Origin: Rhodanobacteraceae bacterium
Lineage (GTDB): Bacteria; Pseudomonadota; Gammaproteobacteria; Xanthomonadales; Rhodanobacteraceae
Reading direction: 5' to 3'
Length of the DNA stretch: 16,139 bases
Assembly: GCA_012270595.1 (NCBI GenBank)
Contig: JAAXIA010000121.1
Span: 1-16,139 of the forward strand
The notes beneath the pieces were generated by a model. It saw only the letters and a program-made list of their open reading frames with translations, had not been told where the DNA came from and made no database searches. Shown here in pieces: positions 14,049-16,139 of this stretch. A program made the position numbers and the translations under genes. Position 1 is the stretch's first letter; each line of letters opens with the position of its first letter.

Positions 14049-14080
14049 CTTAAATAGTGGCAATATTGCCACTATTTAAG
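14049..14080. terminator. Perfect 32-bp palindrome, likely bidirectional terminator
   Basis: The 32 bases are exactly self-complementary, with core GTGGCAATATTGCCAC flanked by TATTTAAG on each side. It lies between the convergent thiolase and putA genes. It contains the last two sense codons and the TAG stop of putA (14080-14072). A GC core followed by T-rich arms suits termination in both directions, though a separate T run is lacking. Confidence 0.6.
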
Positions 14081-14788
14081 TTCCAATAACGAGGCATTGC
14101 CACCGATAGAGGTCGTGTTGATGGTGCACGTGCGCTCTGTGATGAAACGTAAAAGATAAAGTGGCGATCCCATCAGGTTATATGTTTTCATGTCGGTTTC
14201 TGCAATCAGTTGCAGCACCGCGCCAGATCGCGCGGCCAGGGTGGCCTCGATGCGCCTGGCCTTTTCTGCTGCGCCGCAAAAAAGCACACCTTCGATCTCC
14301 CCGATTTTCCGAAGCCAATCACCTGACAGTGCGCCACCTAGGCCGTTCCATCGCTGCAGGACCTTGCCAGGAAGACCTGCCCGGACCAGATCATCGAGCA
14401 GGTCAACAGCCTGCTCATCTTCAAAACAGGGTATCACCGTATTGCCTGCGACCAGGGCTGCCGTCAGCCCGCCGGCTATCGCCAGGCTGGGTGTATTAGC
14501 TTCGATCAGCAGCAGAAAGGTACCGCGACCGGAAAAGTAAAGCGTATTACTCTCGCCGGTTGGCCCCGGCATCCATAGGGTCTGGGCGAGCAGGTGGCGG
14601 GCCTGCCGACACTGAAAGCGCACCATGGAAGCTGCGTCGGCGTACCTTGCCCTGTGCTGATCCAGATAAACGGCCCAGTTTTCCAGTATGGTTGCCCGCG
14701 CGGTCACGCCCAGGTCATTCCATGACTCCCATACGCTACGGCTTTGTTCAATAAGCACTTCCAGTGTTAGCATGCGTTCTTTGCCCAC
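14072..14788 (-). CDS. putA: PutA C-terminal ALDH-superfamily domain, separated by amber stop
   Basis: This 238-codon frame is the C-terminal domain of trifunctional or long bifunctional PutA. It matches E. coli PutA at PGPTGESNT (PGPTGERNT) and at the C-terminus, ITERTCTINTTSIGGNASLL. In long PutA proteins this inactive aldehyde-dehydrogenase-like domain covers the channel between the two active sites. It is in the same frame as the upstream P5C dehydrogenase segment, separated only by a TAG and one GGT codon. A GTG at 14788 or an ATG at 14773 could restart translation, neither with a strong Shine-Dalgarno. No further stop or frameshift is present. It could be half of a broken gene, a separately made polypeptide, or a sequencing error. 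Confidence 0.75.
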   Translation of the reverse strand: MGKERMLTLEVLIEQSRSVWESWNDLGVTARATILENWAVYLDQHRARYADAASMVRFQCRQARHLLAQTLWMPGPTGESNTLYFSGRGTFLLLIEANTPSLAIAGGLTAALVAGNTVIPCFEDEQAVDLLDDLVRAGLPGKVLQRWNGLGGALSGDWLRKIGEIEGVLFCGAAEKARRIEATLAARSGAVLQLIAETDMKTYNLMGSPLYLLRFITERTCTINTTSIGGNASLLELK

Positions 14789-14791
14789 ACC

Positions 14792-16139
14792 CTACGGAGT
14801 GTCGCCGACACGTCGGCTGTATGTTTGGGTAAAGCGGTAAAGATAATGCGGACCACCGGCCTTTGGTCCAGTACCGGAAAGCCGCTCTCCACCGAAAGGT
14901 TGCACACCGACAACCGCGCCGATCTGGTCACGATTGATATAGCAATTACCTACTCGGGCACGCTTTTCAATATGGCGAAAAGTGCTTTCATTGCGGGAAT
15001 GGATGCCCATGGTCAAACCAAAGCCAGTGTTATTGATCTGGTCAATCACCTGATCAAGCTCTTTGGCTTGATAACGAATTACATGCAGAACCGGTCCAAA
15101 ATGTTCCTGTTTTAGTTCGGCAATACTGTTGATTTCAAAGGCCACCGGTGCAATAAAATTGCCGTGCATGCAGGTATCATCCAATGCTACTTCGTAAATC
15201 AGCCTGCCTTTTTTATTCATGGTATCAATATGTTGCTGTAACGCCTTACATGCCTTCCCATCAATCACCGGCCCTACATCGGTCGCCAGACGCTCGGGGC
15301 GACCCACCGATAATTCAGCCATCGCTCCTTTGATCAGACTGATGATGCGCTCTGCTACTTCACTTTGGATATACAATACGCGCAGTGCCGAACAGCGCTG
15401 CCCTGCCGAAGCAAAAGCAGAGCGGATCACATCACGAACCACCTGCTCGGGCAAAGCGGTACTATCCACCAGCATGGTATTTTGCCCACCAGTTTCGGCG
15501 ATGAGTGGCGCGCTACCTGCTGGTCGAGCCGCCAGGGCGCGGTGAATATGTTGAGCTGTCGCGAGCGATCCAGTAAAGGCGACGCCAGCGATGCGGTCAT
15601 CCCGACTCAATAGCGCACCCACAGTTGGCCCGTCGCCGGGCAGAAAATGGATCACGGCGGCGGGAATACCGCTTTGCAACAAAAGCTCCATAACGCGGAA
15701 GGCCAGGAGCGAAGTCTGCTCTGCCGGCTTGGCGACTACAGTGTTGCCAGCAAGCAGCGCTGCACCGATCTGGCCGATGTATATCGCCAGCGGGAAGTTC
15801 CATGGGCTAATACAGGCAAACACGCCCCGCCCCGTATAGCTTATGACCATCGATTTACCTTTATACGAAGTCCATCGCTGCCCGTCGGCCAGGTGTCGTT
15901 CTGCTTGCTGGGCGTAGAAACGCAGAAAATCCACTGCCTCACGCACTTCATCCATCGCATCCTGAATGGTTTTACCGGCTTCACGCTGACACAACGCCAT
16001 GAGTTCGGCCATGTGTTCTTCCAATTTGTCGGCCAGCTGAAGCAGGTAGAGCGCGCGGCTGGAAACAGGTGTGGCTGCCCAGTCGGGCCAGGCTTCTTTA
16101 GCGGTGGCCAATGCTTGTTCCACGTCATGGGCATCAGCC
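14792..16139 (-). CDS. putA: PutA, P5C dehydrogenase part (partial, ends at amber codon)
   Basis: PutA oxidises proline to P5C (proline dehydrogenase domain) and then to glutamate (NAD-dependent P5C dehydrogenase domain). Only the second domain is in view; the frame stays open through the window edge, so the start and the flavin domain lie beyond 16139. Seen here are PWNFP with the active-site Asn, FTGSLATAQ (NAD binding), IAETGGQNTM with the general-base Glu, GQRCSALRV with the catalytic Cys (codon 15394-15392), and PFGGERLSGTGPKAGGPHYL. The frame ends at a TAG (14794-14792) 21 codons past the GTGPK motif, where E. coli PutA continues for about 200 residues. The catalytic domain itself is complete. 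The GTG at 16123 is only an internal Val, not the start. Confidence 0.88.
   Translation of the reverse strand, partial: ADAHDVEQALATAKEAWPDWAATPVSSRALYLLQLADKLEEHMAELMALCQREAGKTIQDAMDEVREAVDFLRFYAQQAERHLADGQRWTSYKGKSMVISYTGRGVFACISPWNFPLAIYIGQIGAALLAGNTVVAKPAEQTSLLAFRVMELLLQSGIPAAVIHFLPGDGPTVGALLSRDDRIAGVAFTGSLATAQHIHRALAARPAGSAPLIAETGGQNTMLVDSTALPEQVVRDVIRSAFASAGQRCSALRVLYIQSEVAERIISLIKGAMAELSVGRPERLATDVGPVIDGKACKALQQHIDTMNKKGRLIYEVALDDTCMHGNFIAPVAFEINSIAELKQEHFGPVLHVIRYQAKELDQVIDQINNTGFGLTMGIHSRNESTFRHIEKRARVGNCYINRDQIGAVVGVQPFGGERLSGTGPKAGGPHYLYRFTQTYSRRVGDTP

Follow-up and report, generated by a model that had tools for sequence, protein, structure and literature searches.

A Putative Naturally Split PutA with a Separately Encoded C-Terminal Domain in a Rhodanobacteraceae Bacterium

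Introduction

Three types of PutA, designated A, B, and C, are established, and the C-terminal domain (CTD) of type B PutA is reported to contribute to aldehyde dehydrogenase (ALDH) activity and to channelling (PMC5293562). The locus analyzed here invites comparison with three kinds of PutA. Type B PutA carries proline dehydrogenase (PRODH), P5C dehydrogenase (P5CDH), and the CTD in one chain; our locus has the same order of P5CDH and CTD and the same kind of terminal motif, but it places a stop codon and a new start before the CTD, giving two polypeptides in which the CTD is not covalently linked to P5CDH. Type A PutA, as found in the family and order of the bacterium studied here, has a P5CDH of the same family (52–63% identical over the matched part), but it lacks a CTD, and its terminal motif follows directly after P5CDH with no stop between the two. 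The split putA-CTD-putP operon of the Vibrionaceae and their allies is divided at the same domain boundary and belongs to the same clade as our locus, from which it differs in that our locus has no putP (a convergent fadI is found there) and comes from a different order.

A naturally split type B PutA with the CTD as a gene of its own is already present in annotated records, as in Salinivibrio, where the RefSeq annotation gives the order AraC regulator, PutA, aldehyde dehydrogenase family protein, PutP. Among the top-ranked results of our literature search, none dealt with a split PutA in its title or abstract, and a description in print is possible. In fused PutA structures, a C-terminal flap seals the substrate tunnel, and the role of the ALDH-like C-terminal domain in such proteins is hard to separate from that of the enzyme itself. 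A two-gene form allows the lid protein to be added or omitted and channelling to be measured directly. In-frame stops at domain boundaries are, moreover, easily mistaken for mutations.

Here we analyze a 16,139-nucleotide stretch of DNA (hereafter, the window) from a Rhodanobacteraceae bacterium in which a single amber codon lies between the P5CDH and CTD coding regions of putA. The original prediction had offered four explanations for this codon: a recent nonsense mutation, natural splitting with a restart, partial read-through, and an assembly error. Natural splitting agrees with the related loci, the trees, and the pattern of conservation, with the restart at ATG 14773, whereas the other three fare poorly against a stop that marks a gene boundary shared with other bacteria. 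In all likelihood, judging from sequence comparison, the window carries a naturally split PutA whose CTD is made from its own downstream gene beginning at ATG 14773; the two proteins would most likely assemble, and the pair was probably acquired.

Results

The putA Stop Codon and the CTD Gene in the Window

The window is the entire contig G000:C3 of an assembly of 1.45 Mb in 213 contigs (85.8% complete). Its right end falls inside putA, so a PRODH half would lie beyond the contig; the proline dehydrogenase domain PF01619 had no match in this 85.8% complete assembly, in which the window contig stops within P5CDH. The visible 3′ part of putA, which encodes the P5CDH domain, comprises 448 codons on the minus strand (14792–16138), its 5′ end being cut by the contig end. 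According to the sequence and the list of open reading frames (ORFs), this frame is open from 16138 to the TAG at 14794–14792, and the same-frame ORF beyond it ends at a second TAG (14074–14072), with no further stop within either part. The earlier statement that P5CDH and the CTD share one frame and are parted only by the first TAG is thereby confirmed. The CTD gene (14072–14773, minus strand) has 233 codons and an ATG start, the latter at +21 from the putA stop, in frame 0 and on the same strand, and encodes an ALDH-like C-terminal domain ending with TERTCTINTTSIGGNASLLELK.

The identities first given to the two parts hold as well. PF00171 (Pfam) matches both the P5CDH part and the CTD, and the top NCBIfam models for both are the PutA models NF008869 and TIGR01238, with TIGR01238 passing its curated cut-off on the P5CDH part only. 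The P5CDH translation contains the motifs IAETGGQN and SAGQRCSALR, which presumably have catalytic roles in P5CDH. Of the 206 columns in which 95% or more of 78 split relatives agree, the visible P5CDH part retains 196. It stops 27 residues past the start of GTGPKAGGP and lacks the terminal motif. Residue 419 of the visible part, just before LSGTGPKAGG, is an R, as against a G in at least 95% of the 78 split relatives.

Stand-Alone CTD Genes in Related putA Loci

We compared the window with the loci of the best 80 of 270 named P5CDH matches (62–68% identity), which come from Photobacterium, Vibrio, Aliivibrio, Enterovibrio, Grimontia, Veronia, Moritella, Psychromonas, Motilimonas, Agarivorans, a Vibrionales bacterium, and one Bermanella MAG. 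In these loci the P5CDH frame stops soon after GTGPKAGGP, and a CTD match lies just downstream in 79 of the 80; the CTD match of L093 (Photobacterium sp. SKA34) starts at CTD residue 109. Together with the 30 best matches of an order-wide search they form a set of 110 loci, selected for likeness to the window, at least five of which duplicate named loci (L161, L162, L168, L169, and L185); after duplicates were set aside, 104 CTD genes were used to compare Shine-Dalgarno regions and 97 distinct CTD sequences to assess conservation. A stand-alone CTD of 224–245 codons is present in 109 of the 110 loci, with a start between −8 and +72 bases relative to the end of putA. The sole exception is L093, in which the CTD is spread over two frames, reflecting a frameshift or a sequencing error.

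Within the 109 loci with an intact stand-alone CTD, putA invariably stops after the same motif, using TAA in 78, TGA in 22, and TAG in 9. An alignment of putA from relatives, suggested earlier as a check, thus shows the stop at this place to be shared, the TAG codon itself recurring in only these nine. The P5CDH tail extends 21–63 residues past the start of GTGPKAGGP, the CTD lies in frame 0, 1, or 2 relative to putA in 14, 45, and 50 loci, respectively, and an SD-like motif precedes the CTD in 95. With its start at +21, frame 0, a 27-residue tail, and 233 codons, the window fits within all of these ranges. A lone stop between two parts in one frame, as in the window, occurs in 10 of the 80 named loci by hand count (L055, L063, L064, L065, L070, L071, L099, L102, L111, and L112). 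Judged by these loci, the amber codon (14792–14794, minus strand) is the natural putA stop, at which the first of two adjacent genes ends as it does in many marine bacteria. The shared frame is unremarkable, because 14 of the 109 related loci also hold both genes in one frame, and a single in-frame stop is not by itself evidence of a broken gene.

The neighbourhoods of the named loci are similarly uniform, with putP directly 3′ of the CTD in 71 of 80 (none was found in the examined flank of the other 9), an AraC-type gene upstream in 66 of 80, and a P5CDH-bearing ORF of more than 950 codons in 78 of 80. In the window, putP is absent 3′ of the CTD, and fadI, convergent and on the other strand, takes this place. 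Fourteen named genomes were searched whole; an intact stand-alone CTD was present in 13 and a frameshifted copy in the 14th, and a PutA ORF of more than 1000 codons lies beside the CTD in 13 of the 14. The Bermanella MAG has a 440-codon PutA ORF beside its CTD and another ORF, of 1046 codons, on a different contig. In the order of Photobacterium marinum, 147 of 247 genomes give a match at E 1e-12, and among the matches listed, at least 55 of the 247 genomes carry a stand-alone CTD ORF of fewer than 300 codons (hand count) and at least 21 a fused ORF of 1266–1301 codons. A class-wide search of 369 genomes at E 1e-29 gave no matches outside the window's own assembly, this search being too strict, or the sample too thin, to reveal the split clade.

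Resemblance of the CTD to PutA Domains and a Possible Two-Protein Assembly

We measured the tails of fused and split proteins in 20 stretches, two of which (L208 and L217) yielded no motif. From the start of GTGPKAGGP to the end of the protein there are 274–281 residues in 12 fused B/C rows, close to the 27 + 233 residues of the window, and 26–38 in six split rows. The terminal motif, of the form xERTLTxNTxxxGGNASLL, follows directly after P5CDH in six type A rows and also ends one fused B row; split P5CDHs lack it, and the stand-alone CTD ends with it. The remainder of the CTD likewise points to PutA. The window CTD resembles residues 603–763 of the 6bsn chain, which belong to the nucleotide-binding part of P5CDH, together with the terminal motif at residues 968–997, and its Pfam match spans profile positions 91–228 of 461. 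A CTD family profile finds its best match in the nucleotide-binding part of P5CDH in type A PutAs (E 3e-41). It scores less well (E 8e-24) against residues 1080–1235, the C-terminal end of the 1235-residue PutA 5kf6, which we take to be a type B PutA; this order of scores counts against the reading proposed below.

In an alignment of 57 CTD sequences the mean column identity is 50%, and most of the domain varies freely. Such variability, along with a length (233 codons) of about half an ALDH domain, would suit an independent binding or regulatory protein that shares the operon with PutA without being a subunit of it. However, 10 of the 23 invariant columns (T212, E213, N219, T221, G224, G225, N226, A227, L229, and L230) are located within the C-terminal motif, the very element that split P5CDHs lack, and pairwise distances of P5CDH and CTD correlate with r 0.89 over 78 rows, a value to be read with the caution that shared ancestry alone also yields a high r. 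We regard an independent protein as improbable, albeit the best placed of the alternatives to a split PutA.

For a split PutA, we propose the following arrangement. Comparison with the related loci indicates that putA ends where P5CDH ends and that the CTD, which belongs to one and the same chain in type B and C PutAs, is translated separately from ATG 14773. The CTD protein has the look of a degenerate P5CDH nucleotide-binding part joined to the conserved C-terminal flap. From its homology to fused PutAs, it would dock on P5CDH, and the docked CTD would act in trans, not in cis, to close the tunnel through which P5C/glutamate semialdehyde passes from the proline dehydrogenase site. Binding of the CTD to PutA and a lid on the tunnel in trans are likely by analogy with the fused enzymes. 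We are evenly divided on a wider proposal, according to which the pair would represent a fourth, two-subunit PutA architecture, with a separately translated, non-catalytic ALDH-like subunit that provides the tunnel lid and flap in trans and whose abundance could adjust channelling, and with a module that moves between orders as a unit and replaces type A.

Origin of the Pair in the Rhodanobacteraceae Lineage

Among the matches listed for 196 relatives in the window's order, there are no stand-alone CTDs; the listed matches are type A P5CDH domains, and one relative (G160) has a fused PutA of 1290 codons. A type A putA was also not seen in the window's own assembly, where any further P5CDH matches are weaker than those listed (E of about 4e-41), as compared with about 1e-150 to 1e-175 for a type A putA. 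Because its own family has short type A PutA and the order matches listed include no stand-alone CTD, the split pair was probably gained laterally, from a Vibrionales-like clade with the same form, and the type A putA usual in the family would have been lost or would be missing from the assembly.

Native sequence makes up the left part of the window, with tsaD, rpsU, yqeY, dnaG, dedA, and mgtA clustered likewise in three relatives of the genus (G001, G006, and G010) and one of the family (G023), tsaD being found in three of these four and lying outside the examined stretch of G010. All four have a type A putA within the same 31–36 kb, on the same strand as dnaG, whereas the putA of the window is on the opposite strand; uppP, PEBP, h377 (the 377-codon gene), and fadI were not found in these 31–36 kb stretches. 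In four genus relatives, h377 and fadI form a divergent pair located elsewhere. The possibility that the split pair replaced the native putA in place was rejected, since the putA of the window sits beside the native fadI and not at the native putA site. The GC content of the whole window is 0.536, compared to 0.63–0.72 in five stretches of relatives, and the assembly measures 1.45 Mb, whereas 14 genomes from its genus span 2.9–4.2 Mb. This is perhaps a genome-reduced, host-associated lineage.

A chimeric join at the contig end is possible, and with it the broader explanation that an assembly or sequencing error created the arrangement, either through a misread sense codon or through a contig end that carries the putA of another bacterium. 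The assembly does consist of 213 contigs, with the putA part at the extreme end of one of them, and the CTD of this part has no stand-alone counterpart among the matches listed for the 196 order relatives. A misread codon, however, is not expected to fall on the gene boundary of a whole clade. Regarding a chimeric end, the best named P5CDH match is only 68% identical, so the putA part is not a copy of a known contig in that collection, and GC content runs without a step at the join (0.53–0.55 in the putA part, within a window range of 0.45 to 0.60). Third-position GC (GC3) is 0.54 in P5CDH, 0.61 in the CTD, and 0.54–0.62 in the other window genes. Several Photobacterium and Grimontia P5CDH genes share the GC3 of the window (0.56–0.57), as a chimeric end would allow, and GC3 is thus uninformative on chimerism. 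Overall, we consider an error of either kind quite unlikely.

Phylogeny and Selection

In a tree of P5CDH sequences the window groups with 78 split rows (SH-aLRT 100), the outside group consisting of 33 type A rows from the window's family and order and one fused B row. This tree lacks L097 and L098 of the 80 named loci, presumably removed by a filter against stops, and holds two type A genes twice (relatives G001 and G006); the end branch of the window, 0.37, was flagged as long. In a second P5CDH tree, of 55 rows, a branch with 100/97 separates 33 split rows, including the window, from 22 others (12 fused B/C, 10 type A), none of which falls inside the split clade. The CTD tree separates 31 split rows from 12 fused rows (97/94), although the program warned of long fused branches meeting at this point. 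The rows of the 55-row tree and the CTD tree were picked by hand; they comprise 26 of the 80 named loci together with further rows, without L208 and L217, in which no motif was found, and no row was removed after a tree was viewed. Within the split clade the position of the window is weakly supported: the set of 29 rows that holds it received 90/74, with 28 of the 32 other split rows joining above its P5CDH. The end branch of the window CTD, 0.79 against a median of 0.27, is what one would expect of a lineage with no close relatives among those sampled. The split thus looks like one old event, and the window carries a member of the split clade.

The median dN/dS of CTD genes is 0.076 and the highest value 0.238 over the 19 usable of 23 hand-picked pairs of relatives; four pairs with dS below 0.05 were excluded, one of which had a dN/dS of 0.74 at a dS of 0.018. 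By these values, the CTD genes are under purifying selection. The window CTD retains 31 of the 34 columns conserved in at least 95% of the 97 distinct stand-alone CTDs, having lost one A to S, one V to I, and one G, near the end, to K; this retention of 0.912 is at the low end, with one row lower and one equal among the 97. Its median identity to other split CTDs, 0.41, is the same as among those others, while the P5CDH of the window has a median identity of 0.64 to the split rows, compared to 0.71 among those rows. Taken together, the low dN/dS, the retention of the conserved columns, and the usual divergence indicate that the window CTD is not a decaying fragment.

These results bear directly on the possibility of a recent nonsense mutation, in which a fused type B gene would have acquired the TAG and left a decaying 3′ fragment. 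The TAG is indeed single and in frame, the type A putA of own-family relatives is free of internal stops over the matched part, and the small size of the assembly is like that of lineages that lose genes. Such a mutation is nevertheless very unlikely, given that the split is common to the clade holding both parts, that fused rows stay outside this clade, and that the CTD has kept its reading frame, its conserved columns, and its usual divergence. Relaxed constraint and closest orthologues without the stop, the signs of a nonsense pseudogene, were not observed for the window. The original prediction had named the case of an uninterrupted gene in all relatives combined with relaxed selection as one that would point to a plain error or a fresh pseudogene; we found instead that the gene is split in 109 of the 110 loci and that constraint is kept.

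Programmed or leaky read-through of the TAG to yield some full-length fused PutA, although compatible with two parts in one frame and no other stop between them, has almost nothing to recommend it, as the CTD is in another frame in 95 of the 109 related loci, where simple read-through could not join the two parts, and the CTD and the 377-codon gene both end in TAG as well. The earlier view of TAG as an ordinary stop is borne out by this usage, and the L194 orthologue of the 377-codon gene ends at about the same place. A general reassignment of TAG was rejected on the ground that the codon serves as the ordinary stop of these two genes. The only tRNA in the window is tRNA-Ser(tga).

Start and Termination of the CTD Gene

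Two restart codons had been put forward, GTG 14788 and ATG 14773, and both are located at these positions. Only the ATG stands up to comparison: it, and not the GTG, aligns with the start codons of relatives, and its Shine-Dalgarno pairing is the better of the two (−4.9 versus −2.1 kcal/mol). The Shine-Dalgarno region before ATG 14773 (14776–14793, minus strand) is nonetheless weak when set against the median of −8.1 kcal/mol in 104 relatives, 13 of which are as weak or weaker. Because of this weakness, coupling to putA translation may help translation of the CTD.

At the other end of the gene, a perfect 30-bp palindrome (14050–14079, not assigned to a strand) overlaps the CTD stop and lies between the convergent CTD and fadI genes. 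It occurs as a single copy in the window, and the surrounding 55 bases are predicted to fold at −21.5 kcal/mol; the palindrome is likely a two-way terminator.
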